DNA of 64,000 nt. It comes from Sphingobium phenoxybenzoativorans. Lineage in GTDB: Bacteria > Pseudomonadota > Alphaproteobacteria > Sphingomonadales > Sphingomonadaceae. The notes beneath the pieces were generated by a model. The model saw only the letters and a list, made by a program, of their open reading frames with translations. It had not been told where the DNA came from and made no database searches. The translations under genes and the position numbers were made by a program. Position 1 is the first letter of the stretch, and each line of letters starts with the position of its first letter. This document shows, in pieces, positions 38,996 through 61,642 of the stretch. The DNA lies in contig NZ_MINO01000001.1 in the NCBI RefSeq assembly GCF_001757355.1, positions 62,001 to 126,000 of the forward strand, in the 5' to 3' direction.

Positions 38996-39504
38996 TCGGG
39001 AACGCCGCGCCTATCATCCTGACGGCAACGATGGGGGCGGCGGACTTTGCCTGGGCGGACACGCTGCGCCGCGCCCATTTTCCTGCCGGGCGCAACAAGG
39101 TGCCCGCGCATATCACCCTTTTCCACCACCTGCCGCCTGGCCTGCAAAGGGAATTGATGGATCGTATGGCCGTGATTTGCAGGGGGAAAGCGCCGGCAGC
39201 GCAGCTCGCGGGATTGCTCAACCTGGGGAATGGCGTGGCTTTCCGGGTCGAGAGCGCGGGTCTGGACGCCATACGCGCCGAACTGGCCGACATGTTTCAG
39301 GGTTTGCTGACACCGCAAGATCAGGCGAAGCCGCGCTTCCACATCACGGTGCAGAATAAGGTCAGCAGCGACCGCGCCAGACTAGCGTTCAATGAACTGA
39401 ACGCCAGCTTCCGGCCGCGACCGCTTGTGATTTCCGGACTGGCGGCATGGCGCTATATGGGCGGCCCCTGGGAGCCGATCCGCGCTATGCCGTTCAGGGG
39501 TTAG
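38992..39504 (+). CDS. 2'-5' RNA ligase/2H phosphoesterase family protein
   Basis: 170 residues with two HxT motifs, HITLFHH and HITVQNK, the hallmark of 2H phosphoesterases such as LigT/ThpR. Activity on RNA 2',3'-cyclic ends or ADP-ribose-type substrates is possible. The start overlaps the peroxiredoxin stop (ATGA), so they are coupled. The 3' end overlaps the convergent ferredoxin reductase stop. Confidence 0.88.
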
Positions 39505-40730
39505 GCCAGGTCCACTTCCTTGAGCGGCCGTGATGCGTCCGCCAGTTGCGCCTGATCCAGCACGGCGCCGGAAATCACATGGGCGCGGCCCTGAACATAG
39601 TCCTTGACCATATTGACGCAGTCGAGCGCGATCAGCTTCCCGGCCTTCATATACAGGACGGAGAAACTGCGCGTGGCCGGGTCGCCGCGCAAAATCGTCT
39701 GATCGAAGCCGGTCGACAGGCCAACGGTCTGCAGCTTCAGATCATATTGGTTGGACCAGAACCAGGGCACCGCATCATATTCGGTTTCCTGGCCCGTGAT
39801 ATGCTGGACCGCGACCTTTGCCTGATCATTGGCGTTCTGAACGGATTCAAGGCGAATCTGCGCGCCCCGCGCATAGCCATTGGCGTGCGCTGCGCAGTCG
39901 CCGACCGCATAAATGTCCGGCAAGCTGGTGCGGCAATAGGCGTCGACATCAACGCCATTGCCGCCAGTTGCGCCTGCGGCGATCAGCGGGGCGGTCTCCG
40001 GAATGATGCCGATGCCGACAATGACCAGATCGGCGGGAATGCGCTCTCCGTCCGCTAGGATGACGGCGCTGACATGGCCATCGGTCGCCTCGATCTTCTC
40101 GACCATCGCGCCCAGGCGCAAATCGACGCCATGCGCCCGGTGGTCCGCCTCATAGAAGCGGGACAATTCTTCCCCGGCGACGCGCGCCAGCACCCGGTCG
40201 AGCGCCTCCAGCAGCACCACCTTCTTGTCGAACTTGCGCAGGACGGCCGCCGCCTCAAGGCCGATATAGCCGCCGCCGATCACCACAACCTGATTGATCT
40301 CATCGAGCCGCGCCATGATGGCGTCCACGTCATCGCGCCGGCGCACGCCGTGGATGCCCTTGGCGTCGGCCCCGGGGCAGGACAGCATGCGCGGCGTGCC
40401 GCCCGTGCACCAGATCATCTTGCCATAGCTTACTTCGCTATCGTCGGTCAGCGTGACGAACTTGCCGACGGGATCAACGGCCTTCACCCGCTTGCCGAGC
40501 AGCATTTCAATATTGCGCTCGGTCCAGAAGGCGACGGGACGGATCAATATGCGCTCGAACGTCTTTTCGCCCGAAAGATATTCCTTGGAGAGGGGAGGCC
40601 GCTCATACGGGACTTCGCGCTCGTCGCCGAGCATGGCGACGCTGCCTTCGAAGCCCATCTGGCGTAACTGGATTGCCGCCTGTGCGCCCGCATGACCCGC
40701 GCCGACGATCAGGACGTCATAATAGCTCAT
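39501..40730 (-). CDS. FAD-dependent ferredoxin reductase (putidaredoxin/rhodocoxin reductase-like)
   Basis: 409 residues from ATG 40730, preceded by GGAGGG at ten bases. FAD-binding [20 protein letters not shown]-binding [30 protein letters not shown] and a reductase C-terminal domain are seen. Such enzymes pass electrons from NADH to [2Fe-2S] ferredoxins of P450 or Rieske systems, so it could serve the P450 at 21950 or the Rieske ferredoxin at 20998, though it lies in the core region and may have other partners (inference). Confidence 0.92.
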
Positions 40731-40829
40731 TGCCCGTACACCCTCCATATATTCCCGCTTTTTCGCGCCTTGGCCTGCTTTGCCCGACATGGCAAGAGGC
40801 GGTCGGCTGATCTGGGTTCAAACCACTGG

Positions 40830-40986: not shown

Positions 40987-41159
40987 AAATTTCCTTTGTA
41001 TAATCAGTATCTTGAGCTGATCGTAGGCCTCGAAATCGGTGGCCTTTCAAGTGCAAACTTGCATCAGGATTTTCCACGATTTTCCGCCGTTTTCTCCGGT
41101 GTTCCCGCGGCTCCATGCAACACTGATGCAACATGGAATAATGGATGCCGGCTCTGCTG

Positions 41160-41339
41160 TCAGGCTACTAAGTCGACATCATCTACGTGTTTCGAATCTA
41201 GCGCACGGGCCTTTCGCGCAAAATCGGCCCCTGCAGCGAGGCGTAGACGCTTCTCGCCAGGATCGATGCAGTTTTCTGCCTTCTCGATTTCTTCCAAGGC
41301 ACGCTTCTCAAAATAAGCGCGGTCAATGCGATCGAACAC
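41160..41339 (-). CDS. Small charged protein (59 residues)
   Basis: A short frame opened by GTG 41339, with GGAG six bases upstream (ideal ribosome-binding site). The product is rich in Glu, Lys, Arg and Ala (RAYFEKRALEEIEKAENC, later EKRLRLAAGADFARKARAL), compatible with a two-helix protein. It resembles small alphaproteobacterial proteins with a Tyr-Phe-x-Arg-Arg-Ala start; no function is known to me. First gene-like feature after the tRNA. Confidence 0.5.
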   Translation of the reverse strand: MFDRIDRAYFEKRALEEIEKAENCIDPGEKRLRLAAGADFARKARALDSKHVDDVDLVA

Positions 41340-41530
41340 TCAGCTCTCCAGCATTCGCGTTAGGTGCCGGGCTACCCGTGCGGCGCATATATTGATCGCG
41401 ATCGCGATAGTTCAAGGGCCATTGCATCAACTTGCGAAGCGACCCTACAATACGCCAGAGTGTTGGCTACCAAATAGCACTTGGCAAAAAAGAGAGGTTG
41501 CTAATCTAATTGTAATCCGGAGGATTTTCC

Positions 41531-41653
41531 TTGCCCCATAGTCCATCTACGATGTCCGACGCGGAATTGATTATGGCGTATGACCGAGACACTATGACCA
41601 GCTGGGAACGAGCCGTAGTGGCGGAGATGGAAGCGCGCGGCATCGAATTCTAA
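41531..41653 (+). CDS. Possible 40-residue small protein
   Basis: TTG 41531 follows GGAGGA (41519-41524) by six bases. The product ends in a helix-like ERAVVAEMEARGIEF; ATG 41552 is an alternative start giving 33 residues. No family recognised. An overlapping minus-strand frame (41501-41776) is less convincing. Existence rests on the ribosome-binding site and composition only. Confidence 0.35.
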   Translation: MPHSPSTMSDAELIMAYDRDTMTSWERAVVAEMEARGIEF

Positions 41654-41757
41654 CTTCACTACAGTGCCGAGCTCTTTTCGCTTAACGAAGCTCCGGCAGT
41701 CGATCACCTTGACCCTCGAGAGCGTCTGACCACCGGAATGATCGGAAAACGGTCGTT

Positions 41758-41991
41758 TCACCGCTTCTTCCACCACTTCTGATCATCAGGCATGTCTGCG
41801 TAGATAGGCTGACGCGAACGCCAATCATCCTCGTAATCGTCTACAACCGTGCTTCCGGCGCCTTCGCCGATAACGATCTCGATCCTCTGTGCCGGCAAGT
41901 CGATCGTGATTCGGGCGGTTTGAAAACCAACAGCCTTCACCGCCTTAAGTACACGCTCAACATCAGATTGAAGGATTCGCGTGCCTTTCAT
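41758..41991 (-). CDS. Hypothetical 77-residue protein of the HTH operon
   Basis: From ATG 41991, preceded by GGAG at eight bases. N-terminal part RILQSDVERVLKAVKAVGF is helix-like, followed by two strands (TARITIDLPAQRIEIVIGE) and an acidic/Trp-rich tail (DDQKWWKKR). The start overlaps the previous stop by four bases (ATGA). Proteins of this look often lie next to excisionase/integrase genes in sphingomonad islands (my recollection). Function unknown. Confidence 0.65.
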   Translation of the reverse strand: MKGTRILQSDVERVLKAVKAVGFQTARITIDLPAQRIEIVIGEGAGSTVVDDYEDDWRSRQPIYADMPDDQKWWKKR

Positions 41992-42140
41992 AACTCTATC
42001 TCCGGCGCTGGGCTGGGCCTGGTCTCGATGGTGCCATTGGCAAAGTCCAGGATGACGCGACCGGACTGCGCGTCGGACCACTTCACCGTCCTCAAAGCTG
42101 CTCTGATTTTCGCCGTGGTGATGCGAGCTGACTGGGTCAC
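41988..42140 (-). CDS. Small 50-residue protein coupled on both sides
   Basis: GTG 42140 overlaps the stop of the HTH gene (GTGA), and its own TGA overlaps the next ATG (ATGA). The product has a helix (ITTAKIRAALRTVKW) followed by a short hairpin (GRVILDFANGTIETRP). Its strict stop-start interlocking with both neighbours is strong evidence that it is real. No family recognised. Confidence 0.6.
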   Translation of the reverse strand: MTQSARITTAKIRAALRTVKWSDAQSGRVILDFANGTIETRPSPAPEIEL

Positions 42141-42472
42141 GCTGTGGGCGGGAACATTGGTTCGCGACGACGTTTTGCTCGTGCGATATTGGGCCGGAAC
42201 GTCGTCGCTGACGAGCTCATGTCCTCGGAGGGGGCACCGACCTTAACTCTCGTCGCCTCATATTTTTCAACGTCGACAGCCAAAATCCGAATAAGGTTCC
42301 CGACACGGAAGTGACCCAACTCGCCGGAATTGATGACTTTTCGAACCATGCTGGGGCTGCACTCCCAACGTTCGGCGACAGTTTCGACCGTCAGGGGGCG
42401 TGGCCCAAGATTGTAGGGCGACCAATCGCGCTCAGCCACCTGGCCGACTTTGCCTTTACTCTCGTCATTCAT
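42137..42472 (-). CDS. Excisionase-like helix-turn-helix protein
   Basis: 111 residues. The middle part TVETVAERWECSPSMVRKVI, then GELGHFRVGNLIRILAVDVEKYE, is the HTH_17/excisionase pattern (helix-turn-helix plus wing with RVG..IRI). The C-terminal part is basic and disordered. It probably binds an attachment site or promoter of an integrative element. It lies 27 bases after the amber-interrupted frame and is coupled to two small genes. Confidence 0.78.
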   Translation of the reverse strand: MNDESKGKVGQVAERDWSPYNLGPRPLTVETVAERWECSPSMVRKVINSGELGHFRVGNLIRILAVDVEKYEATRVKVGAPSEDMSSSATTFRPNIARAKRRREPMFPPTA

Positions 42473-42499
42473 CGTTGCCCCTCCATCAGTTATCCCCGT

Positions 42500-42856
42500 T
42501 CAATTCGAGATGAAGTCCGCCTCCTCGACCGTCAGTATGCGGGTTCCATCAGACGGATCGGTACCGCCACCGCCGGCGACCTTGTACACATAATATCGTG
42601 TCGGGATCGCGCGATCGATGAAGCCCTCGATGCCGCCGGTCTCCAGAATGCGCTGATCAGTAAAAATATCAGCGGCCTAGCCGAGTGCCATCTTGGGCAC
42701 ACAAGATATGATGGGTTCGCCGTCGAAGGTTTCGACCAGGATGGCCTCACCGGTCCATTCCATGGCTTCCCAGTCGGTTATGAGAGAATCGTCTGTCATC
42801 CAGTACGGTACCGAGTTGCCGGGGAGAGGAAAAGTTGGAGCGATAAGCGCACGCAT
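42500..42856 (-). pseudogene. 118-codon frame interrupted by one in-frame amber codon
   Basis: ATG 42856 opens a frame that reaches TAG at 42679-42677 (codon 60), continues in the same frame without another stop, and ends at TGA 42502-42500. Both halves look like protein: before the stop WTGEAILVETFDGEPIISC, after it DQRILETGGIEGFIDRAIP and YYVYKVAGGGG. The second half lacks a good start. It is either a fresh point-mutation pseudogene or a readthrough gene. First in the HTH operon. No family recognised. Confidence 0.6.
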
Positions 42857-43328
42857 CGATCAGCTCAATGTTCCGTAAAGATTATCGCCGTGGCCATGAA
42901 ATTGTATCGTAACGAAACATTAACCACTTCCTTTAGCGACCAACCACCTTGAATCCCAAACCGGGGCGCTCAATCGCGGTTAATCGGGTTGCAGAGAAAG
43001 GTGATTCGTGAGGATACTGGCGCTGTCACTCAGGTGCTGAACAACCAGTATCGCGGTGGCCACGGCAACATCTGAATGTATCCAAACAGGATGATGGGCG
43101 GATAGATTGACGCCTCCGGCCAGGATGGGATCCCCCTTCCACAAGGAGAACCTACGTACGTCGTCTATCCGCTGCTGTGATCCTAGCGGTCTGACCAACC
43201 GCTTCAACAACAAGTTAAGGTCACCAAAAAAGGTTAATACCCATTTTGGGACAATGCCCAGAGTTGGGACCGGTGCTTCACACATCTGAAAACAGCGACC
43301 CATTTGCATTATGGGTCGGTCGGTGGCT
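42857..43328. other. Intergenic region without a supported gene
   Basis: About 470 bases, AT-richer than the core. A minus-strand frame at 42980-43309 (109 codons) has no recognisable domain or good ribosome-binding site and I do not call it. The right part contains runs such as CACCAAAAAAGG but no clear terminator. It may hold the promoter of the minus-strand HTH operon. Confidence 0.4.
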
Positions 43329-43499
43329 TTACGATTTTAGGCGCGCCGCGTATTTATCTGCCCGGTTAAAAGCTCCCTCGATCCGGCGTTGCGTTGCTTC
43401 AATAGCTTGCTTTAGCGGTGCGTCCGAAGACTGCTTTGGAAAGCGAGAGTCCTCAATCGAGTTGCGAACGGTTTCCAGCGATGCACTCAGCTTCGTCAT
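43329..43499 (-). CDS. Small 56-residue protein coupled to the proteasome-like gene
   Basis: ATG 43499 overlaps the stop of the upstream 440-residue gene (ATGA). The product is a charged, mostly helical peptide (SLETVRNSIEDSRF, then LKQAIEATQRRIEGAFNRAD). It is too small for an enzyme; a partner, adaptor or inhibitor of its neighbour is possible (inference). No family recognised. Confidence 0.6.
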   Translation of the reverse strand: MTKLSASLETVRNSIEDSRFPKQSSDAPLKQAIEATQRRIEGAFNRADKYAARLKS

Positions 43500-44818
43500 T
43501 CACCGTCTCCCTTGCCATGCCGGCCCATACGATCGAAGAACCGGGAATTCAACTCGGGTGGAAAGTAATGTTTCCGCTTCACCCACACAAAACCCTCTGC
43601 TTGAGAAATGACCGCGACATCGATCGGACCGCCCACGGTTTCCATTCCACGAGTTACCCGACGCTTGATCGATGTAAGATTGACGAGCGCTTCTGCCATC
43701 CTTGCCATCTCAGGCTTCGGCATGAATTCTACCATGTCCTCAATCTCAGTTCGAGACTGCTGGCGTATCGCTTCAAAGCTATCCTGCTTCAGCCCGTCGA
43801 GAAATGCCGCTTCTGCCTCTTCCGCTACGCTAGCGAGCGCGGCCTTTTCTTCGGCAGCCATTTCCAGGTGGGCTAGAATACTTTCGCTGATTCTCGGCAC
43901 CGCACCCCGGCAGAAATTGGACACGTCTCGCTGAATGCTTTCATCCAGACCGTACAGAAAACGCTCGACCATTTCACGCTGTGCGAAAGGGATCACGCGT
44001 GCACGATCGCCATCTCGATCGATATCGACAAGATTGGCTCTCGCAAACTTTAAACACCCACAAGGGGCGCCGAGGAGTTCAAATGATACGAGAGTAGGGA
44101 AAAGATCATCTCGACCGTATCCCGCGATTACCAAGCCAGTCGAGGGTTGAAACGGTGTATTCCTCTCTAGTGCCAGCCTGCAAATAATCCCGGCATCTTC
44201 CATATGAATTGCGTCCAAGTCCGGCAAAATCGACTTGGCGAACTCCAGAACCCAAACCGCAAGGACATCATCTACAGCCGGCACCGCATTTCCGATGAAC
44301 TCTGCCGCGGGCTGGGACTCCAAATAGCTGCGCATCACCGCCAGTTGCTCACGCAGCGTGTCCGATCTGGCGCGCGCATAGCCGTCCTCGCCGGCGTATT
44401 CCTGGCTGATGCCACCCTCATCACCGAAATATCGATTGAGGTATCGATCATCAAATCGACTTTTTACGACATTGAGGATCGGCCGAAGAATATTGCCAAA
44501 ATCCTGTTTTTGAACCTCTGCAGATGCGGTTTCTGCGAAGGAATTTAGATAAACAAGGAGCGCCTCGGCCGCGTCCGTGACGCGTCCAAAGCTATCGTTC
44601 TTGGCCCGGAATTTTTTAATGAGAACCGCCAACGGAATTTGCACGAAGTGCATTCCGCCATTCACCATAGCGCCAATCGCATCCAAGCTGCACAACTCGA
44701 ACAGCTTGTCGGCAGAATCGTAGATCTTCTCCTGGTTACTGCCGGCTGAGATTGTGACTGCGCTGTCGGCAGCTAATGCGACAGCCGTCTTATTAAGAAT
44801 CGCGATTTCCGCAGTCAT
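43496..44818 (-). CDS. Large protein with proteasome/HslV-like N-terminus (putative Ntn hydrolase)
   Basis: 440 residues from ATG 44818. After removal of Met the chain begins Thr-Ala-Glu and reads AVALAADSAVTI, with Asp at position 17 and Thr at 21 counted from the new Thr1, exactly as in proteasome beta subunits and HslV. Lys30 in EKIYDSADKLFEL may stand for Lys33 (a loop three residues shorter). The remaining ~240 residues are unlike HslV and end in a charged helical part and a basic tail. A 22-codon upstream extension exists but would bury Thr1. Catalysis is inference, not shown. Confidence 0.7.
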   Translation of the reverse strand: MTAEIAILNKTAVALAADSAVTISAGSNQEKIYDSADKLFELCSLDAIGAMVNGGMHFVQIPLAVLIKKFRAKNDSFGRVTDAAEALLVYLNSFAETASAEVQKQDFGNILRPILNVVKSRFDDRYLNRYFGDEGGISQEYAGEDGYARARSDTLREQLAVMRSYLESQPAAEFIGNAVPAVDDVLAVWVLEFAKSILPDLDAIHMEDAGIICRLALERNTPFQPSTGLVIAGYGRDDLFPTLVSFELLGAPCGCLKFARANLVDIDRDGDRARVIPFAQREMVERFLYGLDESIQRDVSNFCRGAVPRISESILAHLEMAAEEKAALASVAEEAEAAFLDGLKQDSFEAIRQQSRTEIEDMVEFMPKPEMARMAEALVNLTSIKRRVTRGMETVGGPIDVAVISQAEGFVWVKRKHYFPPELNSRFFDRMGRHGKGDGE

Positions 44819-44821
44819 GAG

Positions 44822-44829
44822 CCCCCCCC
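44822..44829. repeat. Homopolymer of eight C (G on the coding strand)
   Basis: On the minus strand eight G lie three bases upstream of the start of the proteasome-like gene, where a ribosome-binding site is expected. No other good Shine-Dalgarno sequence is present. Slippage here could alter translation. Confidence 0.6.
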
Positions 44830-44909
44830 GGATTGCAGTGGTCTCGCAAATCGATATCTGCGCCGCAACGATCGAATCCACCAAAATGGCAGGATAACTG
44901 GCGATGGAC

Positions 44910-45015
44910 TCGAAGTTCTAACAAACCGACTGAGCCAAAACAGAATTATCGGTTAAAAAAGGGATCCCCCACCGCTTCAATTCGTAGGGAAGCCCCGTAA
45001 GGACCGTAAAAATTT
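44910..45015 (+). repeat. Diverged direct repeat, copy 1 (~106 bp)
   Basis: Shares three anchored blocks with 48039-48144 at identical spacing: TCGAAGTTCTAACAA at position 1, GGG(A/G)TCCCCCACCGCTT at 51 bases, and GTAAGGACC at 87. Similarity between the blocks is low, so the blocks appear selected. It lies upstream of the flippase-glycosyltransferase module. Confidence 0.7.
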
Positions 45016-45089
45016 AAGCTAAAAATAATAGTGATTTAAGCGAAGCATTTCGACGGACCGCTTGCATCGCAGCCTTCCGCGAGTGACCG

Positions 45090-45245
45090 GTGCACACAGC
45101 CTATGGGGATGGCGTCGTCCGCGTGCGGAGGCCCGGCGAAGCCAATCCAATTGATGCTGTAGCTTACGCGGAGCCAAGGGAAGCTCGGCAGGATCTGCGG
45201 AAGAAGGCGAGAGCACTTATCGCCGCCGATATCAGCGAAAAATAG
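45090..45245 (+). CDS. Possible 51-residue protein followed by a perfect hairpin
   Basis: GTG 45090 to TAG 45245. The C-terminal part is helix-like (EPREARQDLRKKARALIAAD). A perfect ten-base hairpin begins at the stop codon, as terminators often do. The ribosome-binding site is weak (GAG at six bases). It could also be the decayed end of a larger gene. Competing minus-strand frames exist but are not supported. Confidence 0.35.
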   Translation: MHTAYGDGVVRVRRPGEANPIDAVAYAEPREARQDLRKKARALIAADISEK

Positions 45246-45279
45246 GCCGGTCGCTACCAAGGGGGGGACGCGACCGGCC
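45245..45279 (+). terminator. Perfect ten-base stem hairpin
   Basis: GGCCGGTCGC (45245-45254) and GCGACCGGCC (45270-45279) are exact reverse complements with a 15-base loop containing seven G. No T-run follows. A terminator or structured RNA is possible. Confidence 0.5.
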
Positions 45280-45443
45280 CGGCGTGTGCCCTAAGCGTCT
45301 TCTCAACGGCGTCAGGCTACTACATCTCCGACACGAGAATCTGAGATCGATCCGTTTTCGATCTTTTTCTCTGGCCCCGCCGTCAGCTTGCCGTTTCTTC
45401 CTGAAAACAGGTAATGCATAGGCGCGAAATCAAAGGGGGTCAC

Positions 45444-46922
45444 TTGAGTATCAAGCGCCAGGTTGCTCGCGGCAGCGTATGGATCTCAGCTGCCCGCCTG
45501 CTGAGCAATGTGCTGACCGCACTGAGTACCATCGTGCTTGCGGCATACCTTGCCCCGAGCGATTTCGGAATCGTCGCCATTGCGACATCGGTACTTGCCG
45601 TGTTTGGTGCCTTTACCGAGCTTTCCCTCGCCAATTCGCTGATCGCGATCAAAGATCCGGACGAGGACCACTACTATACCGCATGGAGCTTAGGCGCCGC
45701 GCGCGGCCTGGCTCTCTCTATCGTCCTCGCTGCAGCATCGCCATTTGTCGCCAAGGCATACGGCGATCCTCGCTTAGAAATGGTCATGCTGGTGGTCGCA
45801 CTGACGCCGCTGATCACGGGGCTCCGCAGCCCCCTTATCTCAAAGCTGCAGAAAGAGCTTCGCTTCCACCAGTCTTTCTACCTGGATGTGGCGACCAGCC
45901 TCTCCACCGTCGTAGCATCGATCGCACTCGCAGCGATCTTCCAGTCCTACTGGGCGATAATTATCGGAACGTTGGTCGGGCAGGTCGTAGGCGTCGCCAT
46001 TTCCTATGCTGTGAAGCCGTTTATGCCTCGCATCAGATGGCGCAAAGCTAATGAAATGTGGCGGTTTTCTTTGTGGCTGTCCCTCGGTCAAATCATTTCG
46101 ACCATCAATTATCGCGTCGACCAGCTCCTCGTCGGTGCCTATCTCGGCAACGTTTCGCTGGGTCTATACACCGTGGGAGGTAGGCTGGCCCAAATCCCCG
46201 GTCGCGAGGTTGTTCGACCTCTTACGCTTCCCCTATTCCCTGCTTTTTCGATGGCGGTCGACTCGCCAGATCGACTGAAGTCGATGTACCGACGCGCGCA
46301 AAACCTAGTCACGGCGGTGGCGCTCCCCATTACCGCGGGCCTTTCCGTTCTTGCGGGTCCGACAGTCCACGTCCTGATGGGCGACCGCTGGACCCAAGCA
46401 GTGCCGGTCATCCAAATCATGGCGGCCGTCACAGCCTTCGAAACGCTAGGCACGCTCGTCACGCCGTTGGCGATGGCGAAGCACCAAACGCAAGTTCTGA
46501 TGGTCCGCGAGATCCAAAAATTCGCGGTTCGACTGCCGCTCCTGCTCGTTGGCATTCTTCTGGGCGGCTTCCCCGGCTTAATCGCCGCGCGTGCAGTCGC
46601 GGCATTGTTGGGCACCACCGTCGACATGTGGATGGTCCGGACTTTGATCAACTTGCCGCTTTGGACGCAGCTCGCTGACAACTGGCGCAGTCTGACCGCC
46701 ACGGGTGTGATGGTCGGAGTGGTTTGGACGGGCCAACATTCAATCGCGATGCCGACTGAGCGCTTCGAAGCGGCAGGATGGCTGGCAGTTCTCACGGCAC
46801 TTGGCGGGGCGACCTATCTTACCGCCAGCCTGGTCCTCTGGCGTATGTCGGGCCGGCCGAATGGTCCTGAAAGCGAAATGCTTTCCGGCCTCAGGGATAT
46901 ACGAAATTTAGCTCGAAGTTAG
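45444..46922 (+). CDS. Polysaccharide flippase (Wzx-like, MOP superfamily)
   Basis: 492 residues from TTG 45444, which follows AAAGGGGG; ATG 45414 would add ten residues. About 12-14 TM helices. The N-terminal GSVWISAARLLSNVLTALST and the SDFGIVAIATSVLAVFGAF region are typical of lipopolysaccharide biosynthesis flippases (WzxC-like). It moves lipid-linked glycans across the inner membrane. It is followed by a glycosyltransferase 20 bases on. The polymer made is unknown. Confidence 0.88.
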   Translation: MSIKRQVARGSVWISAARLLSNVLTALSTIVLAAYLAPSDFGIVAIATSVLAVFGAFTELSLANSLIAIKDPDEDHYYTAWSLGAARGLALSIVLAAASPFVAKAYGDPRLEMVMLVVALTPLITGLRSPLISKLQKELRFHQSFYLDVATSLSTVVASIALAAIFQSYWAIIIGTLVGQVVGVAISYAVKPFMPRIRWRKANEMWRFSLWLSLGQIISTINYRVDQLLVGAYLGNVSLGLYTVGGRLAQIPGREVVRPLTLPLFPAFSMAVDSPDRLKSMYRRAQNLVTAVALPITAGLSVLAGPTVHVLMGDRWTQAVPVIQIMAAVTAFETLGTLVTPLAMAKHQTQVLMVREIQKFAVRLPLLLVGILLGGFPGLIAARAVAALLGTTVDMWMVRTLINLPLWTQLADNWRSLTATGVMVGVVWTGQHSIAMPTERFEAAGWLAVLTALGGATYLTASLVLWRMSGRPNGPESEMLSGLRDIRNLARS

Positions 46923-46942
46923 TTGATCCTGTGGGGGGAAAA

Positions 46943-47965
46943 ATGGCTTTAAAGACGCACTTGAAGAAATCGCTGTATCGTCTCCGACGCGTCAAATGGA
47001 TGTTGGATGCAACGCATCGTCGTCGACTCGTCAGCGTCTCAACGAAACATATTTCCGGGCGACGGCAGATCCCGGCGACGAAAGACGATGTGATCGTTGC
47101 ATGCCTCGTGCGCGACGGCAGCCCATACATCGAAGAGTTTCTGAGCCATTATCGGTCGCTCGGCGTCAAGCACATGGTGTTTTTGGACAACGGCTCGACC
47201 GACGGCACGAGAGAGAAGCTGGCGCGGCATCCCGACGTTACGGTGCTCCAGACCAACGTCTCCTACAAGAAGCTGAAGATGGAGATGAAGCAGCACCTTG
47301 TGCACCGCTTCGGCAAATCCAGTTGGGTGCTGTGCGTCGATATCGATGAGTTCTTCGATTATCCTGGCCGAGACGGCAGGACAATTGCTCCACTGGTCTC
47401 GTATCTGAACGCTCGCGACTTTTCCGCGGTTGTTGCCCAGATGCTGGACGTGTTTCCTGACAACCTGTACGAGCAGCAGGCGAGCTGGCGCGATACCCAT
47501 GTCTATTACGACAATCGCCATCTGGAACGACAGCCGTACTCCCACGAATTCCTCAACGAGAACAAAATGCCTTGGCCGGCAATTGAGGCCTACTACGGTG
47601 GGATGCGGAAATCGAAGTTCGATGTCAGCGTGCACCTAACCAAGCACCCGTTGGTGTTCCCTTCGAAGGGTGTGGACTTCTACCACCATCACCGGGTGCG
47701 CGGGGCCTATGTGTCGGACATCACGACCGTTTTGCTTCACTATAAATATGTCGGTGACTTCCGGGGCTCGATCGACACAGCTGTTTCGAGGGGCACCCAT
47801 TGGGGCGGCTCAGCGGAATACAAAGCCTATGCCAGTGCCTTCAATGACAATCCGGCACTTTCGCTCTTCGATGGCGAAAGCCGTCGAATTGAGACCATAG
47901 AACAGCTCGTCGACGAAAAGTTCTTGGTTGTCTCAGACGATTTTAAGAATTTCACTGCTGCGTAG
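46943..47965 (+). CDS. Glycosyltransferase family 2-like/GT92-like protein
   Basis: 340 residues from ATG 46943, with GGGGGG three bases upstream. It contains DVIVACLVRDGSPYIEEFLS, FLDNGSTDGTREKL and the metal-binding DxD in CVDIDEFFDYP, followed by LLHYKYVGDF-type segments. It transfers a sugar from a nucleotide-sugar, probably onto the glycan handled by the adjacent flippase. A strong terminator follows. Confidence 0.86.
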   Translation: MALKTHLKKSLYRLRRVKWMLDATHRRRLVSVSTKHISGRRQIPATKDDVIVACLVRDGSPYIEEFLSHYRSLGVKHMVFLDNGSTDGTREKLARHPDVTVLQTNVSYKKLKMEMKQHLVHRFGKSSWVLCVDIDEFFDYPGRDGRTIAPLVSYLNARDFSAVVAQMLDVFPDNLYEQQASWRDTHVYYDNRHLERQPYSHEFLNENKMPWPAIEAYYGGMRKSKFDVSVHLTKHPLVFPSKGVDFYHHHRVRGAYVSDITTVLLHYKYVGDFRGSIDTAVSRGTHWGGSAEYKAYASAFNDNPALSLFDGESRRIETIEQLVDEKFLVVSDDFKNFTAA

Positions 47966-48004
47966 CGACGATGGCCTGTGGATCATTTCCACACGGCCTT
48001 TACT

Positions 48005-48030
48005 AACCGCCTTCGGGCGGTTTTTATTTT
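48005..48030 (+). terminator. Rho-independent terminator after glycosyltransferase
   Basis: AACCGCC (48005-48011), TTCG loop, GGCGGTT (48016-48022), continuing into TTTTTATTTT. A canonical tetraloop terminator, 40 bases after the stop. Confidence 0.92.
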
Positions 48031-48038
48031 GCGGAAAG

Positions 48039-48144
48039 TCGAAGTTCTAACAATCGGCGGGAAGTAAAATGCTAATTCGTTTTGAAAATGGGGTCCCCCA
48101 CCGCTTAACACTTCGTCGCATCCGGGTAAGGACCCGTGAATTTC
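48039..48144 (+). repeat. Diverged direct repeat, copy 2 (~106 bp)
   Basis: Same three blocks and identical spacing as 44910-45015. In this copy GGGTCC (48091-48096) and GGACCC (48129-48134) are complementary and could form a stem. It begins eight bases after the terminator of the glycosyltransferase and ends about 60 bases before the DNA ligase start. Confidence 0.7.
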
Positions 48145-48206
48145 CCTAGCATTTCCGTGTGTTTCATGAGTTTATCGAACGTCATCGATTGCTCCAGGCC
48201 GCTATC

Positions 48207-48902
48207 ATGCTCGTCGCCTCGTCTTCACCTCCTCGCTTTCATCCCGCTCTGATGAAGCAGCCCCGCGAACTCGCCCACCTGTTCACCGCGTGGTCCGGAA
48301 ACGTGCCCGCAGACGGTATCATGGCGGAGGAGAAGCGTGACGGCATTCGTGCCCTCTACATCGATGGTCGACTGCTGACCCGAGAAGGCAATGAGATCCA
48401 CGGCGTCACACACATCATTCCAGTGCTTCGGTTGATGGAGGAGAGGGCAGGGCACGCGCTATTCATCGATGCCGAGTTTCAGGTCGGTGATAGCCTTCGA
48501 GATACCATCGGTCATTTCAAGCGTGGGCCAGCTGCGCCCGATGCAGGCACGCTGTGGGCCTTCGACTGCATCCCTCTGGACCAATGGCGCTCTGACAGCT
48601 GCGAGGATCCCCTATACCGGCGCAAGGCTACCCTGCAGCGCCTGTCGGCGGCTGCGATAGAGGAGATGCAGTCTGACGCCTGGACATGGCCCCAGCGCTC
48701 CTATGGACGGCGTACGGGGGGCGATAGTGTGGTTGTCATACCGGATGTGTGGCTAGGCGATGTCGCAGCGGTGTTAAGTGAAGCACACCGGGTCTGGGCT
48801 CGCGGTGGTGAAGGGCTCGTTCTGAAGGAGTGGGACAGTGCATATCGGCGCCGGCGGACCAGCGACTGGCAGAAGGTAAAAAGGATGATCTCAGATGACT
48901 GA
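48207..48902 (+). CDS. ATP-dependent DNA ligase (minimal, phage-type)
   Basis: 231 residues from ATG 48207; a GTG at 48159 is in frame. Nucleotidyltransferase motifs are present: motif I EEKRDGIRA (Lys is the adenylation site), motif III FIDAEF, motif IV GEGLVLKEWDSAY and motif V DWQKVKR. The usual OB-fold domain is missing, so this is an adenylation-domain-only enzyme. It overlaps an unknown 339-residue gene by eight bases. Bacteria normally use NAD-dependent LigA; stand-alone ATP ligases occur on phages and in repair cassettes. Confidence 0.85.
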   Translation: MLVASSSPPRFHPALMKQPRELAHLFTAWSGNVPADGIMAEEKRDGIRALYIDGRLLTREGNEIHGVTHIIPVLRLMEERAGHALFIDAEFQVGDSLRDTIGHFKRGPAAPDAGTLWAFDCIPLDQWRSDSCEDPLYRRKATLQRLSAAAIEEMQSDAWTWPQRSYGRRTGGDSVVVIPDVWLGDVAAVLSEAHRVWARGGEGLVLKEWDSAYRRRRTSDWQKVKRMISDD

Positions 48903-49914
48903 GCTAGAGATGGAGCAAGGCGGCACAATGGTGGCCACAATTTGGCTTCCATCACCTTGGCCGGTGCCTGCGTCGCGCCGGATCGTTGGCATGGCAGGGC
49001 AAGACTGCGTATTTATAATCACAGCGCAAAGTGATGGCTCATTAAATGTAGCCACGGTCGATTTGACCACTGAAGCCTTGTTTGTTGAAGCTTGGACTCC
49101 GGAGATCAAAATTACTGGCGTCGGCCTCGGAGTGATCGTGCTGACCGCGATTTTTAATAAGATGGCTAGATCGCTGCTGCTAAGGATCAATGGGAGTCCA
49201 GTAACATCTGATGATGATTGTATCTTGCTGAACGCACGGTCCTACCCTGGTGAGCCGTTAGGGCCACTTACTGAGGATGTCGATGGTTTGAAACGTGCGC
49301 TACGTAAGCGTCAGGATCGACTGCGAAATTACAAAAGAGAAGGCCTCGATCTTCGACACAAAGCGAGGCGTTGGTCGGACTTAGAGACTGAATGCCGGTT
49401 ATTGCATGAGGAAACAGCCAGACTACGCGATGGCAATCTCGACTATGTCCGCCCGGTTAGTTTGAACTTACGAAAAATTATCGGTGACGGCCAAGGCAAC
49501 CATCTTCTCCAAGATTGCGCGTCATTTCTCTCTCTCCCGATTGGAGTGTGGCGGAGACCAATCATTTTAACCGGCGAAAGCGCTATCCCTATTGTGACGG
49601 CTATCTCAGCAATCCACGGCGCTGCGGAGCCCGTTCTCAATCTCACAGAGAAGACAGATTTAGACATCTGGTTGGACGATGAATGTGACATCCTATTTGG
49701 GAAGAAGTGGACTAATCTCGAGCTGATACGGGAAATCAGCGACCGGGTGGGCGCCCACTCAGATATGTTTAATCGCGCTGTTGCTGAAGAGCTTGAAAGC
49801 CACTTTGCTTTCGATCGCACATTATTGGCGACTTATTTGATAAGCCTTGCAGATTTGGTTTTGGCGCTGATGGCGCGCGTTCAGTCAGCACGTGGTCGAG
49901 GCGACGCTGGATGA
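48895..49914 (+). CDS. Hypothetical 339-residue protein linked to the DNA ligase
   Basis: No domain recognised. An N-terminal part rich in beta strands (about 1-100) contains one hydrophobic segment (GVGLGVIVLTAIFNKMA). A charged coiled-coil-like helix follows (about 130-180, LKRALRKRQDRLRNYKREG and LHEETARLRD). The C-terminal half is mixed and ends with a hydrophobic helix (LLATYLISLADLVLALMARV). Codon use is AT-richer than in core genes. Overlap with the ligase suggests common expression. Confidence 0.7.
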   Translation: MTELEMEQGGTMVATIWLPSPWPVPASRRIVGMAGQDCVFIITAQSDGSLNVATVDLTTEALFVEAWTPEIKITGVGLGVIVLTAIFNKMARSLLLRINGSPVTSDDDCILLNARSYPGEPLGPLTEDVDGLKRALRKRQDRLRNYKREGLDLRHKARRWSDLETECRLLHEETARLRDGNLDYVRPVSLNLRKIIGDGQGNHLLQDCASFLSLPIGVWRRPIILTGESAIPIVTAISAIHGAAEPVLNLTEKTDLDIWLDDECDILFGKKWTNLELIREISDRVGAHSDMFNRAVAEELESHFAFDRTLLATYLISLADLVLALMARVQSARGRGDAG

Positions 49915-50096
49915 TCACCGCTTTAAACCGGTGCACTGATGACGACCAGTTTAATCTTGGAACGTGGCTAAAATGCTGGAAGAATGTCTAGCGAGAGTCG
50001 AAACGCGCGGAGTAATAATGGTCTCCGGGTTCGCTCATTTCCCTCTCCATTTATCGATGGTTTTACGGGACGCAATGCCGATCGACATTGATGCTG

Positions 50097-50339
50097 TTAA
50101 ATAGCAAGACCGGCCTCGATTCGAACGATCGCGGCGTCAATCGCAGCAATGTCGTTCTGGATCCTGACGAGCCTATATTCGCTAAGGTGCGATCCCCTTC
50201 GCTTCGCATGGAACGTATCGATCGCGTCGATGACCGGCGACGTCTCGCCTTTGAGCTGGCGAAGGATTGCGGCGCGAGAACGGCGCAACGATGCGATATG
50301 AGATTTGGCTTCGAGTGGGTCGGCTGGTTGGGGTCGCAT
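50097..50339 (-). CDS. Small helical phage-type protein
   Basis: 80 residues from ATG 50339. Predicted helical: KSHIASLRRSRAAILRQLKG and LVRIQNDIAAIDAAIVRIEAG form heptad-like repeats. The frame is open further up but without similarity. It lies downstream of the giant tailspike-like gene, where phages often encode small accessory proteins. Function unknown. Confidence 0.6.
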   Translation of the reverse strand: MRPQPADPLEAKSHIASLRRSRAAILRQLKGETSPVIDAIDTFHAKRRGSHLSEYRLVRIQNDIAAIDAAIVRIEAGLAI

Positions 50340-50433
50340 AATGATCCTCAAGAAATGACAAGCGGGCGCCGTTGTCGTGGTGTGATCACGCCGGCGCCCC
50401 AGGGTCATACCCGTTTTCACGGGCTATACCTTA

Positions 50434-53400
50434 TCAAACGAACTGGCTGACCATAGCAGCAGCGCGGGCGTAAAGCTTATAGACATTCGCCACGTCTTCG
50501 CTGACCAGCGCGGCGCCCCAGCAGCGCAGGAACCCTTTGTTTTGATTGGCGCCGCCCCATTGCGTACCAGTGCTGAGGGCGACGCTGGCGATACTGCTGG
50601 TGTTGATGGCAGTCCCCGCCCGATACAGCTGCATGACGCTGCTGCTGTTGCGCAGCAGTCGCCACCATGCCCGACCCATTGACGCGCCAGAGTTCGGGAG
50701 GTTGTAGCTTCGCGCCGCCGCCGCCGTGACCCGATAGGTGCCCGACGATCCGGAAGTGCGCGGTACAAGGTTCGTCACGCCAGCGACGCTGAATTGGGTA
50801 TTCCCGGTATTCACGTCCTCCATGATCTCCGCCATGACGGTGACACTGTCGCGCAGCATCCCTTCGCCGCCGGATGCCGGCGCGTAAGTTGGCCAGTTCA
50901 CGCGGTTCGTCGACACGCTGCCTGCGCTCTTGAAGGAGCCAGTCGCAGCTTCCCAGGTGATGCTGCCTTCGATAACGCCATGATGGCGGTTGAGGGCATC
51001 GCGGACGGCGACTTCCTGGTTCCAGCCATAGCCCAGAACAAAGACATCCTGCTTTGTCCGCAGATTGAGCTCGTCCAAGCTATTCTGGAACATGTCGACG
51101 AACCGGCGCCATTGCGTGCTAGGGGCGGCCGATCCGAAGCTGGTCATGAACGCGGTGGTCGCGGCGTTCTCATTCGAGCCGTCATGGATTGCTACGACGA
51201 CCGTTTTTTCTTTGAAGGTCGGACCCATGTAGCATTGCCATGTTTTCGGGTCGTCGATGTCCCCAGGCTCCCCGGTCAGCGGGTTGATGCCGAAAATCCC
51301 ATAGACGCCGCGCACCGTGAACTCGTGGATCGGTTGCGTCGAATAGGAGAGGGCAGATGCGACGCGAATTTCCTTCGTCGTCTGGTCGATTGTGAAAGCC
51401 GGGCTGCCACTGACGATACGAGCGAACCCACTCCCTTCCGCAAAAACGATAGTGCCGATCGCAGTGCCGACCGCTGTACCCTGCGGAACGACCAGGCCAT
51501 TGAAGCCGGGCTTCGGCACGATAGTAAACTCGCTGGTCGGAAGCTGCGGGTCCCAATAGATCGTAGCGCCGCCGGTGTTTACGCCGCCCTCGCGCTTGAT
51601 CCAGACCATATCATCTGGAATTTCCCACTTGTCCCAGCCGTTCACCTCCAAGCGGATGCCGCCCTGCGTCGAAGCCTTGTAATCCAGGAATGTGCGGCAG
51701 AGGCTTGCGGCGCAACGCATGCGACTGTCGTTAAAGATGACACGCTGGTTCGTGACATTGAGGCCCACAAAGAACATTGCATCATTGGAGCCATTAACGC
51801 CTGTGGGGCGGCGCGGCTCTTCAATGGTCAGGCGGTTATAGGTATTGGGGTTGTTGAAGCCGGTATTGCCCCAATCCTTTAGAGCGCGCTTGCACCATTT
51901 GATGTGAACATCGTTGAAAGTGCTCTCAAGAGCCTTGTGATCCAAGCCCGCATCGGCGCAGTTCTCGAAATACCCTGTGTTGATGACAAGCCTGCGCGGT
52001 CCCTGGCTATTATCGGCCTTGCCGCTGTCGGCGTCGATGCCGTCGCCGTTATTGTATACCGCATTGTTTACCTGCACGCTGTTTTTGCAGGTGACATTGT
52101 TGAGTGTAATATCCGACCACTCATCCAGTCCATCGGCGCGCTGACTTTTGAAAACCAGCATCGCTTGCCAATCCTTGCCCCAACGGCTGTCGCCGTCGAG
52201 CACCATGTTGCTCATGGTGACATGATTCACGCCATACTGCAGTTGAGCAAAGCCGCGTTCAGCCCGCAGCAGTTCGATGTTATCGCACTCGAAATGGCTG
52301 ATGCGGGCAGCGCCTTCATCGCGGTCGGTCGTGTCGCCGACGCTATCGGCGGGCTTGCTCTTGGTATTCTCGATGGTGCGATAGACATTATAGCTACGGT
52401 GGTTGAAAACGCCCCAATGCTCGATCGGGCAAGTCACCAGCCACACGCCATTGCCATAATGATCGTGATCGATGTCGTAGAACCAAATGTAACCCGAGCC
52501 TGGGGACAAGTTTTCAAACCGGAGCCAATTCGGACCAGTCCCGCCCGTCGATCCATTCGCGGCGTTCGGCCGGTTGCCTTTGAACTTGGCGCGCCGGGGC
52601 GTTAGGCCATCAGCCTTCATTCCGCGAAGGGAGATGCCTTTTGCGGGGTTGGTGGGCAGCTGATCTATGACACCAGCAGCATTGCCCTGCTGTTGATAAT
52701 CGCCTGAGTCCGCGTCGACGAGGATCGTAACGGGCACATCATCCTGGATGCCGCGCTTTATAAAAGTCGGGATCGCGGTGCGGTTGGCCGCATTGGCATA
52801 GGAACTGCCATCCTGGGCACCGCGAGCGGTCGGCGCAATCCAGAACGTCAGCTCGTCGCCGACGACCACCCCGTCATCCAGCACATTGATGGAGAAGGTC
52901 CATTCGTCCTTGTTGCGCTCGGGGCTGAGTACCTGGAAATTGATCGTCGCAGGGGAGCCGCCCAGGTCGTTGTAATTCAGGTAAAGCTGATTGCCGACGA
53001 ACAGGCCATCGCGGGCCACGGTCCCATATTGGCTGTTGACCTTGACGCGCATCGTGAACGGACGATCGGCAACGAACTGCCGCGAGAAGGCGCTATTCTC
53101 CACCATGACGGCGGATCGCTGCTCAGTAGGAACAACCGCTTTGGCGGTGTTCGCGAGATTGACATCCCAATGGATCACAGCGTTGGTATCGGTCAGCCCG
53201 GTGATGACCGATCCGTCGCCGGAATAGGCTTCCCGGTCCGCCTGGGTATTGATCCACTGCCCGTTATATTTGAGGCCATTATGAGCGACGCGCAGAACGA
53301 AGCTGTTGCCTTCGACGCCGATGAGAACGGCGCCAGCGCAGCCGGGTAGCGCCGGGTCGTGGATGGCCTCGCATCCGCTCATCCATAGCATGTCCGCCCG

Positions 53401-55197
53401 GCCGATGCCGCCGTCATATATGCCCCAATGGATCGGGATCGTACCGCTGGCATGCGGAGGATTGCGCTTTGTCGTCGGGTTGATCGACTTGCAATTTTCG
53501 AATGTTTGCCAAGGATCTTCGCCCAAAATGCTAACGATCCAGCAGCGCCAGTTGCGCTTGTTGTCTTCGCAGATGACGTTGCGATAATGGGTCTTGCGGC
53601 CTTTGTTATCGATGCCCGCATCAGTCATGCCGCTGATACGGACGTTCTCGACCAAGCCGTTGTAGATATTCTCGTTGCCAGTGATGCCGTCGCCGTTCTG
53701 GTAATAGATGCCGGGGATCGGCCGGGGGTCCATGCTGCAATTCTTGAGGTGCATGAAGTTCGGCGAATTAGGATCGGTCTCAGTCCCGCGAATAGTCCAG
53801 TTCGTGATGGTGCCGGTAAGGTCGAAAATCTCCTGCCATGCCACGGTGCCCGTGCTGTCGCCGATCTGGCGGCCGGCGTTCACCGGGAAGTCTTCGATCA
53901 GCAGATCAGTGACGGTGCCGTTGCAGCGCACGGCGGCACGCGAGCAGCCGATGCCCGTGCAATTGCGCACTGTCATTCCAGCGACGGTGCTCCCAGACGC
54001 CTGCTCAATGAAGCGCTGGACGTCGAGGAATTTGCAATCCTCCCATACCAGCTTCGCCATGTTGGTGCTGTTTTTGACGACCCAGCCAAAGTTGAAATGG
54101 CTAAGATCGAACCCCCGAAAAGTGAGGTTGCGGCTACCTTGGACCGTAATGAAAGTGTTTCCCGGACTGCCGCCCAAGTCATATTCTTCATCCAGATAGG
54201 TCAGCTGTTCAGGGTCGTCCGGAAGCTCCCAAAGTGTCCCGTTGCGCATGCGCCGCATGCCGAACGGCTTGACGCCCAGCGGCTTATAGGTCCCCTCGCT
54301 GTCGGTCGACTGCACCAGCGTCTGATTTGTGCCAGTGCTGCCCGTGCCCGCCACAGTGGCCAGATTGGCGGCGGTGATCGTATATTCGCCTTCGACGATA
54401 TTAACGACGCCGTTCTGTCCCGAATTGGCGACCTGGGATGCGATTTGGGCCAGTGGCGCCGCATTTTCAAAGCTGGTGCCGTCCTTCGTCCCGCTACCGA
54501 GCATTGTAACCCAGCGCGGCGACGCAACTGCGCCTTGCACAACTGTGAAGGTGCGATCGATGCCCGACCCCACGATCACGCCGGACGCATTCAGCAGGTT
54601 GATATGCAGATCGATGGTATAGGCGACATTGAAGTTTACCGACCCGGTCAGCCGGACCTCATTGACGTTCGCGACGCTGAACAGTCCCAGGCCGCCGCTT
54701 ACGCTAATGGAATATCCGAGCTCGAGCCCGGTGACCGTGCCGACCGTTTGAGACGCATAGGTCGCGGACTGGAGAATATCGCCCTCATATCCCGACGCCG
54801 GGACATAAGCGAGAGAAGGGGTAGACACTGCCAGAATGTCGGCCGGCAGCGAGGCGTCGGTCGTTTCGCCGCCGGGGCCGGCCGCGGTCACCTCCAGCAC
54901 AAGCGCACCGACGTTCATCGGGACCACCGTCGTCCCCGTTCCGACCGACGTGCCGTTCAGCAGCCAGCGACGGCCCGTTACCGTCCCGTGACTGACGGTA
55001 CCGTCGTTAGCTGTGAATTCAGTGACACCGGCGGTACCGGAGACCGGCGAAATGCTGGGCGGCTCGCCGAATATCGGTGCGGGATCGGGTTCCGCCACCA
55101 ATGGCGTGATACCGAGCATGTCTTGGATTGCGGAGATGGCCTCGGGATTTTGGTCCTGAAGAGCGGCGGCGATCTCGGCAGCATTAAGGACGGGCAT
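50434..55197 (-). CDS. Giant tailspike/tail-fibre-like protein with two beta-helices
   Basis: 1587 residues from ATG 55197 (GGAG nine bases upstream). Residues ~35-230 hold Ig-like strands. Two right-handed parallel beta-helix regions follow (about 240-700 and 800-1170), each opened by a similar ENAAPLAQIA/YANAANRTAI segment. A cadherin-like domain (about 1210-1290) contains GTAVGTAIGTIVFAEG and FTIDQTTKEIRVAS. The C-terminal part looks like a LamG-type lectin fold ending in YARAAAMVSQF. Probably a receptor-binding or polysaccharide-degrading virion protein. No assembly genes are near. Confidence 0.82.
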   Translation of the reverse strand: MPVLNAAEIAAALQDQNPEAISAIQDMLGITPLVAEPDPAPIFGEPPSISPVSGTAGVTEFTANDGTVSHGTVTGRRWLLNGTSVGTGTTVVPMNVGALVLEVTAAGPGGETTDASLPADILAVSTPSLAYVPASGYEGDILQSATYASQTVGTVTGLELGYSISVSGGLGLFSVANVNEVRLTGSVNFNVAYTIDLHINLLNASGVIVGSGIDRTFTVVQGAVASPRWVTMLGSGTKDGTSFENAAPLAQIASQVANSGQNGVVNIVEGEYTITAANLATVAGTGSTGTNQTLVQSTDSEGTYKPLGVKPFGMRRMRNGTLWELPDDPEQLTYLDEEYDLGGSPGNTFITVQGSRNLTFRGFDLSHFNFGWVVKNSTNMAKLVWEDCKFLDVQRFIEQASGSTVAGMTVRNCTGIGCSRAAVRCNGTVTDLLIEDFPVNAGRQIGDSTGTVAWQEIFDLTGTITNWTIRGTETDPNSPNFMHLKNCSMDPRPIPGIYYQNGDGITGNENIYNGLVENVRISGMTDAGIDNKGRKTHYRNVICEDNKRNWRCWIVSILGEDPWQTFENCKSINPTTKRNPPHASGTIPIHWGIYDGGIGRADMLWMSGCEAIHDPALPGCAGAVLIGVEGNSFVLRVAHNGLKYNGQWINTQADREAYSGDGSVITGLTDTNAVIHWDVNLANTAKAVVPTEQRSAVMVENSAFSRQFVADRPFTMRVKVNSQYGTVARDGLFVGNQLYLNYNDLGGSPATINFQVLSPERNKDEWTFSINVLDDGVVVGDELTFWIAPTARGAQDGSSYANAANRTAIPTFIKRGIQDDVPVTILVDADSGDYQQQGNAAGVIDQLPTNPAKGISLRGMKADGLTPRRAKFKGNRPNAANGSTGGTGPNWLRFENLSPGSGYIWFYDIDHDHYGNGVWLVTCPIEHWGVFNHRSYNVYRTIENTKSKPADSVGDTTDRDEGAARISHFECDNIELLRAERGFAQLQYGVNHVTMSNMVLDGDSRWGKDWQAMLVFKSQRADGLDEWSDITLNNVTCKNSVQVNNAVYNNGDGIDADSGKADNSQGPRRLVINTGYFENCADAGLDHKALESTFNDVHIKWCKRALKDWGNTGFNNPNTYNRLTIEEPRRPTGVNGSNDAMFFVGLNVTNQRVIFNDSRMRCAASLCRTFLDYKASTQGGIRLEVNGWDKWEIPDDMVWIKREGGVNTGGATIYWDPQLPTSEFTIVPKPGFNGLVVPQGTAVGTAIGTIVFAEGSGFARIVSGSPAFTIDQTTKEIRVASALSYSTQPIHEFTVRGVYGIFGINPLTGEPGDIDDPKTWQCYMGPTFKEKTVVVAIHDGSNENAATTAFMTSFGSAAPSTQWRRFVDMFQNSLDELNLRTKQDVFVLGYGWNQEVAVRDALNRHHGVIEGSITWEAATGSFKSAGSVSTNRVNWPTYAPASGGEGMLRDSVTVMAEIMEDVNTGNTQFSVAGVTNLVPRTSGSSGTYRVTAAAARSYNLPNSGASMGRAWWRLLRNSSSVMQLYRAGTAINTSSIASVALSTGTQWGGANQNKGFLRCWGAALVSEDVANVYKLYARAAAMVSQFV

Positions 55198-55380
55198 GGT
55201 AAGAATCTCCAGGCGAGCCGCCGGCACACGCCGCGGCTGGTGTGGCCAACTGGCCATTTGCGATCGGGAGATCCTGCCGGGTCACGCTGGTCAGGATCGT
55301 GCGGTTCGATGTTGAAAGGGGCCACCAGCTCCGCTGCCCTGGTGCCCCCCAGCGCCGCGATAGGGGGGTCGCGCGCTGAG

Positions 55381-55411
55381 ATCAGCGGCGGGAAAGGATT
55401 CCGCCGCTGAT
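55381..55411 (-). terminator. Perfect 11-base stem hairpin ending the small-gene operon
   Basis: ATCAGCGGCGG (55381-55391) and CCGCCGCTGAT (55401-55411) are exact reverse complements with a nine-base loop. It begins eight bases after the stop at 55419. It separates the small-gene operon from the tailspike-like gene. No T-run. Confidence 0.65.
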
Positions 55412-55418
55412 TTCCGAT

Positions 55419-57079: not shown

Positions 57080-57129
57080 GGTCAAGTCCTTCGATTAATG
57101 GTCGTCACGGCTTCGGGGGCCGGGGGTGG

Positions 57130-58515: not shown

Positions 58516-58525
58516 GCTTTGGTGA

Positions 58526-59074: not shown

Positions 59075-59078
59075 CCGA

Positions 59079-61618: not shown

Positions 61619-61642
61619 CTCATTAACCTTTCCGTTGTACAA

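Follow-up and report, generated by a model that had tools for sequence, protein, structure and literature searches.

The described systems closest to the locus reported here include HslV, a protein of about 175 residues, and the bacterial proteasome system, in which substrates are tagged with Pup, whose gene neighbours a proteasome-type gene and whose roughly 60 residues are disordered. In 2021, Fuchs, Alva and Lupas described 22 new proteasome-like families, the function of which is not known (PMC8665760). One of them, PMI-4 (Proteasome homolog with Multiple Insertions 4), has insertions after H1/H2 (site 3) and between H3/H4 (site 4) and occurs in many bacterial phyla, Euryarchaeota and phages; for the new homologs, the authors report finding neither a genomic context nor a co-occurrence pattern that would point to a particular function (PMC8665760). 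The bacterial proteasome homologs Anbu and BPH have no propeptide and no known dedicated ATPase (PMC8665760). Among the PMC full-text matches listed, we found no work on the function of PMI-4 or of phrog_5990, the matching phage protein family; a later report may exist.

The window analysed here, a stretch of 64,000 nucleotides from Sphingobium phenoxybenzoativorans, contains a two-gene locus (Table 1) whose large gene likely belongs to PMI-4, an assignment made by the published description (representative HDY66466.1) and not by sequence. The likeness comprises a proteasome beta core, an N-terminal nucleophile, insertions at both sites 3 and 4 and a similar spread (PMC8665760). A sequence-only reading of the window had called the enzyme possibly new; its family fits PMI-4 instead (PMC8665760). 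What sets the locus apart is its context, as a coupled small gene follows most copies seen here, whereas the 2021 authors report finding nothing suggestive for the new families (PMC8665760). This small partner is the most novel part of the locus and seems to be undescribed. Homologs of the large gene occur in several bacterial phyla, phages and archaea (including Methanosaeta and Ca. Methanoplasma MAGs).

Compared with HslV and the 20S proteasome beta subunits, the large protein shares the fold, Thr1, Asp17, an equivalent of Lys33 and an SGG-like strand, but it is 440 residues long against about 175–205, has two helical insertions, no propeptide and no adjacent ATPase that we could see, and carries Val in place of the Ser preceding Gly-Gly (64 of 64 large proteins). 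We rejected HslV itself on grounds of size, insertions and the lack of any HslU seen nearby. The sequence-only reading had placed no ATPase partner alongside, and a Pfam scan of 8 ORFs at 39.5–48.0 kb indeed found no AAA ATPase among them. Relative to Anbu and BPH, the large protein adds the insertions, carriage by mobile elements and the coupled small gene.

Table 1. Coordinates of the gene pair, its key residues and nearby genes in the window
Feature	Positions	Strand	Basis
440-aa proteasome-like (PMI-type) hydrolase gene	43496-44818	-	phrog_5990 match and predicted fold
Thr2 codon (putative Thr1 nucleophile after Met removal)	44813-44815	-	64/64 aligned sequences
Asp18 codon (Asp17 from Thr1)	44765-44767	-	64/64
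Lys38 codon (Lys37 from Thr1), likely equivalent of proteasome Lys33	44705-44707	-	64/64; aligned with Thermoplasma beta Lys33
First helical region, residues 80-218, mostly insertion after H1/H2 (site 3), as predicted	44165-44581	-	Element order of the model, inference
Second helical insertion, residues 293-364, between H3 and H4 (site 4), as predicted	43727-43942	-	Element order of the model, inference
C-terminal core, residues 394-419, TVGGPIDVAVIS to WVKRKHYF (SGG strand region of proteasome beta)	43562-43639	-	
56-aa partner gene	43329-43499	-	ORF call; 4-nt overlap of its start with the large-gene end
HTH_17 / excisionase-like gene, between the pair and tRNA-Met	42137-42472	- (strand of the pair)	
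DNA-ligase-like ORF	48159-48902	+	Translation
1607-aa repeat-rich ORF	50434-55257	-	Translation
ATPase-like ORF	57130-58536	-	Translation
Tyrosine integrase-like ORF	62299-63504	+	Translation

The proteasome-like Ntn fold anticipated by the sequence-only reading is borne out by structure prediction and fold search, and we regard this predicted fold as almost certain. The model has a beta-sandwich core flanked by helices (S1–S11, H1–H4); its residues 2–417 align structurally with residues 1–192 of yeast beta5, and its Foldseek matches include Anbu. In profile searches, the best match of the large protein is Thermoplasma beta (E about 0.01), in the C-terminal core region. PHROG phrog_5990, of unknown function, is the sole strong family match (E 3.8e-82, residues 1–430); a single-sequence Pfam search at E up to 10 returned no proteasome family for the large protein, and Pfam and NCBIfam gave nothing meaningful for either protein. 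We took as noise the matches of the large protein to a TcdA/TcdB pore (Pfam, E 0.25) and to cysJ (NCBIfam, E 0.16), and that of the small protein to CAMSAP_CC1 (Pfam, E 0.0077 over 16 residues, under its cut-off). A weak match of residues 359–429 to cathepsin L, from a single-sequence comparison with solved structures (E 0.12), was not adopted because the profile search ranks proteasome beta first and the predicted fold is Ntn.

The large ORF starts with ATG, and its protein begins MTAEIAILNKTAVALAADSAVTIS. An in-frame stop lies upstream within the available DNA at 62 of 64 loci, and at 40 of these 62 no ATG, GTG or TTG intervenes between stop and start, which agrees with the expectation that homologs do not begin further upstream; judged from these reading frames, the large protein is made without a propeptide. 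In the window, the choice of start rests on the homologs because two non-ATG candidates stand upstream of the ATG, with the TTG at 44884 giving a 462-aa ORF.

Six positions (Met numbering) are invariant across 64 aligned sequences, the window protein and 63 homologs picked by a motif that contains the Thr: Met1 (the start codon), Thr2, Glu4, Asp18, Ser19 and Lys38. The motif filter set aside 23 ORFs. Five of them (L025, L030, L032, L047 and L073) are intact, begin MT and miss the motif at other positions; the short relatives L051 and L052 retain the Thr, as does L120, apparently identical with the L052 gene; and the remainder are fragments of truncated or frameshifted copies. Another 5 of 68 cluster representatives stayed unaligned: L001 (ATT at the start place), L038, L117 and L119 (frameshifted) and L053 (short). 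A second scan without the motif filter, its set partly overlapping contigs met in the first viral-contig scan, found [M/V/L]-T at the start in 78 of 78 new loci, with Glu4 absent in at least 4. By these comparisons, the N-terminal motif is more than chance.

Counted from Thr2, Asp does fall at 17 and Thr at 21 in the window, as the sequence-only reading had stated, and in the alignment Thr1 and Asp17 are each conserved in 64 of 64. The same reading had pointed to Lys30 (K31), which is conserved (63 of 64), but proteasome Lys33 aligns with K38 (64 of 64) instead, and the catalytic lysine is likely K37 from Thr1; the alignment of K38 with Lys33 of Thermoplasma beta comes from a profile comparison in which that N-terminal stretch alone is weak (2.6 bits). 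Met is presumably removed from the large protein, which would expose an N-terminal Thr; the protein is probably catalytic, and we are confident that Thr1 would be the catalytic residue. Around the probable counterpart of the oxyanion Gly47, no conserved Gly stands out among the 64 aligned sequences: Y, F, N, S or H occupies column 53, and in column 54 there are 38 G, 23 N, 2 S and 1 D. In the C-terminal core, V395, G396, G397 and D400 are invariant in the same alignment, and the conservation of WVKRKHYF is overstated because WVKRKHYF itself served as a search word. Within residues 415–424 (43547-43576), RKHYF and an Asn are strongly conserved in addition to the residues with an established catalytic role in the proteasome fold, in part favoured by that search word. 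Three short relatives (L051, L052 and L053, about 270–330 aa) keep the N-terminal Thr and the VGGPIE...WVKRKHYF end while much of the inserted sequence is absent; they are perhaps other PMI groups.

The coupled 56-residue gene described by the sequence-only reading is present, overlaps the large gene by 4 nt and has counterparts beside homologs of the large gene. We scored as a partner any ORF of 40–80 aa starting between 45 nt before and 30 nt after the large-gene stop. By this criterion, 61 of 64 representatives are paired, whereas such an ORF follows 92 of 332 control genes taken from these loci (Fisher p 1e-25); the 64 loci (chosen for no more than 70% identity, a protein of 380 aa or longer and 240 nt or more of downstream DNA) differ from the 64 aligned sequences, and the controls are crude ORF calls of at least 200 aa. 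The second scan, of viral contigs, gave 159 relatives, of which 80 were kept, yielding 78 new loci; 25 representatives at no more than 70% identity to the earlier set and to each other were reduced to 21 by dropping 4 near a contig end, and 18 of the 21 have a small ORF. Across 115 loci, a small ORF of 38–85 aa is found in 108, the other 7 being L009 and L124 (too little DNA), L038 (frameshifted) and L007, L023, L036 and L134, in which, as in L165, L205 and L214, no partner was found despite enough downstream DNA. The start of the small gene overlaps the large-gene stop or lies within 10 nt of it in 60 of 70 cases. A small CDS directly after the large gene is annotated in 5 of the 12 annotated records examined; one of the other 7 ends at the large gene (Javan85).

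Substitution patterns indicate that the small gene is coding and under purifying selection. Of 21 pairs, 1 was unalignable and 10 were saturated in dS; in the remaining 10, dN/dS does not exceed 0.33, although 7 of those 10 have dS of at least 1 and the pairs are not independent because identical sequences recur in some of them (L089-L092, L097-L099). The small gene has a higher dN than the large gene in 15 of the 20 pairs that could be aligned. Divergence of the two genes is strongly correlated among 26 enterobacterial-type sequences (r 0.93, 0 of 2000 permutations) and weakly so in the window's own alphaproteobacterial clade (n = 14, r 0.37, 42 of 2000 permutations, with the wrong-frame ORF L003 included). 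A plain alignment of the small proteins is weak, and the signal came from a left-out-clade test: on a common profile with relatives left out, 34 of 75 small proteins beat 95% of their own shuffles versus 3 of 39 unrelated small proteins, where the 75 exclude L117 and L119 (large gene frameshifted), L003 and L106 (doubtful ORF). The consensus suggests that the common part is a C-terminal helix-like stretch. The window's small protein aligns with the small genes of its clade and, on a profile without close relatives, outscores all but 1 of its 60 shuffles.

In an AF2 prediction of both L017 proteins as a joined chain, the small part has block means of 33–48 pLDDT, and by this model the small protein is probably disordered. 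No docking was predicted for this pair, a result compatible with binding because only 10 of 37 alignment rows were paired. A probably disordered protein of such small size, made from a gene next to that of a proteasome homolog, recalls the Pup–proteasome operon, but here the small gene sits downstream and has no apparent conserved C-terminus; PafA, Dop and Mpa are not among the neighbour matches listed. Taken together, we consider it very probable that the small gene is real and functionally linked to the large one, and somewhat likely that its protein acts directly on the enzyme.

The large gene is rare, sporadic and carried by mobile DNA. It was found in none of 60 relatives of the source genome (36 congeneric) and in 10 of 398 sampled genomes of the phylum, the source genome included and 2 being partial matches; in E. 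coli, DNA resembling one enterobacterial-type copy turns up in 22 of 5426 genomes, in 9 of which the similarity spans most of that copy. Its carriers include 10 plasmids, 13 phage records, 9 of which are streptococcal (7 satellites, 2 phages), and viral contigs with 66 loci in the first scan. In two satellites examined, the pair forms the last two genes, at the end distal to the integrase, and in Javan85 the large gene is the final gene of the record. The gene runs opposite to phage late genes in 3 of 12 annotated records, namely E. coli H3 and Stenotrophomonas phage BUCT708, where it lies near Q or lysis genes, and a Pantoea plasmid, where it opposes phage structural genes and no partner was detected. 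It shares the strand of its flanking genes in a Providencia phage (between a DNA methylase and a holin) and a Porphyromonas phage (among head genes), and in both the pair is on the strand of most neighbours. Nearest-neighbour strands are mixed over 73 representatives (upstream 41 same and 28 opposite; downstream 30 same and 36 opposite). We set aside a role in virion assembly because plasmids and the ends of satellites also carry the gene, which often runs on the opposite strand. The reading frame is disrupted in L038, L043, L108, L117 and L119, consistent with accessory turnover. One accessory stretch of a Rhizobium sp. T1473 plasmid (L131, 5243-14484) has the PMI-type gene flanked by an integrase on one side and a multiubiquitin/ThiF/DUF6527/Clp-protease operon on the other.

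Repressors, transposases and Q top the lists of 135 nearest neighbours, and we see no third component because no neighbour family listed exceeds 7 members. Neither protein matches a family in PADLOC-DB 2.0 at E up to 10. Among the best 25 of 77 PADLOC families matched by the neighbours are capH (3), HTH_VI (2) and RmrA (2), with single matches that include Avs1a, SoFic, LmuA and RTasMBL; within these 25 there is no clear defence enrichment. Ten larger neighbours checked individually gave one match, SoFic beside L048.

The explanation that we tentatively favor is a self-contained two-gene cargo module of mobile elements, in which a PMI-4-type enzyme is paired with a small protein that acts as its brake or first substrate. 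Host methionine aminopeptidase would expose Thr1, which with Asp17 and Lys37 would cut (or transfer) peptide bonds, and the two helical insertions would alter the ring-packing surfaces of the proteasome and probably bind a target or partner. The small, fast-evolving and probably disordered protein, made by coupled translation, would bind the enzyme and, antitoxin-like, restrain it or serve as its first substrate; prophages and satellites may carry the module as a means of countering rival phages or shielding the element. The sequence, the conserved catalytic residues, the recurrent pairing with its selection and the mobility are observed, and fold and disorder are predicted; Met removal, catalysis, binding between the two proteins, inhibition and defence are steps that we infer. 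Because Thr1 can be exposed without a propeptide, some other brake would be required for an active hydrolase, and a coupled, co-evolving small protein would be a natural candidate; such a candidate, together with the spread of the pair as a self-standing cassette of prophages and satellites, favors a conflict module. We regard a conflict or defence role as possible. Weighing against the module are the lack of predicted docking and of PADLOC matches, the neighbours without clear defence enrichment, the same-strand placement in the Providencia and Porphyromonas phages, the variable residues near the probable Gly47 counterpart, the loci in which no partner was found and the weak correlation in the window's own clade. 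More doubtful is the full scheme, a new kind of two-gene conflict system that phages, satellites and plasmids would have spread among bacteria and into some archaea. Its effector would be a proteasome-type Thr hydrolase, and a co-evolving partner about 60 residues long, probably disordered, would inhibit this enzyme, act as a sensor or be its activating substrate.

In conflicts between bacteria and their viruses, the pair may serve as a new proteolytic weapon or switch and, if the conflict reading is true, would provide, to our knowledge, the first known defence or addiction role for a proteasome homolog. The recurrent partner gene offers a first handle on the function of the PMI-4-type family, and the pair is open to co-expression, pull-down and phage testing. 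Control of the enzyme by the partner, should it exist, would reveal a way of regulating a proteasome-type protease that has no propeptide or dedicated ATPase.

Mobile carriage, a coupled small gene and rapid correlated evolution would also suit a toxin–antitoxin addiction pair, in which free hydrolase would harm the host, the small protein would neutralise it and the element would be retained; we think this unlikely, as the toxin-first gene order is less usual in such pairs and a conflict role would fit the pair just as well. Nor do we expect the small protein to be a dedicated substrate or tag, rather than an inhibitor, that the enzyme processes or joins to targets in the manner of Pup or of a connectase ligation substrate: small size, predicted disorder and the coupled arrangement fit this reading, and a relative, connectase, is a ligase (PMC8665760), but neither Gly-Gly nor another conserved C-terminal motif is apparent in the small proteins compared, and no recurrent ligase gene is among the neighbour matches listed. 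A still less probable view is that the enzyme cleaves a repressor or antirepressor to regulate the life cycle of the element, with the small protein tuning the enzyme. ImmA/ImmR is a model for such control, repressor-like and Q-like genes top the neighbour lists, and a partly similar gene of E. coli TUM12355 is adjacent to the regulator genes of a prophage; however, neighbours vary, the gene also sits on plasmids, satellite ends and islands, and it is rare in genomes, unlike a core switch. That the downstream ORF is spurious or unrelated, the large protein alone being a peptidase of the lysogen, could draw on the small ORFs after 92 of 332 control genes, the lack of AF2 docking and the 7 of 12 records without a small CDS, but is very improbable given purifying selection, correlated divergence, the 18 of 21 in the second set and the common profile.

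In the window, the pair lies in accessory DNA, as the sequence-only reading had proposed: besides the absence of the gene from all 60 relatives, no part of 40988-52000 was found in the compared 11–12 kb of any of 7 congeners. A reductase (39501-40790) is common to 7 of 7 congeners and tRNA-Met to 4 of 7, with only L138 matching the window's place and orientation. A search for an attachment site at tRNA-Met found no exact tRNA repeat of at least 12 nt in 40991-64000. Further along, the window holds an element-like block (48000-63504), the genes of which are named in Table 1 from reading their translations.
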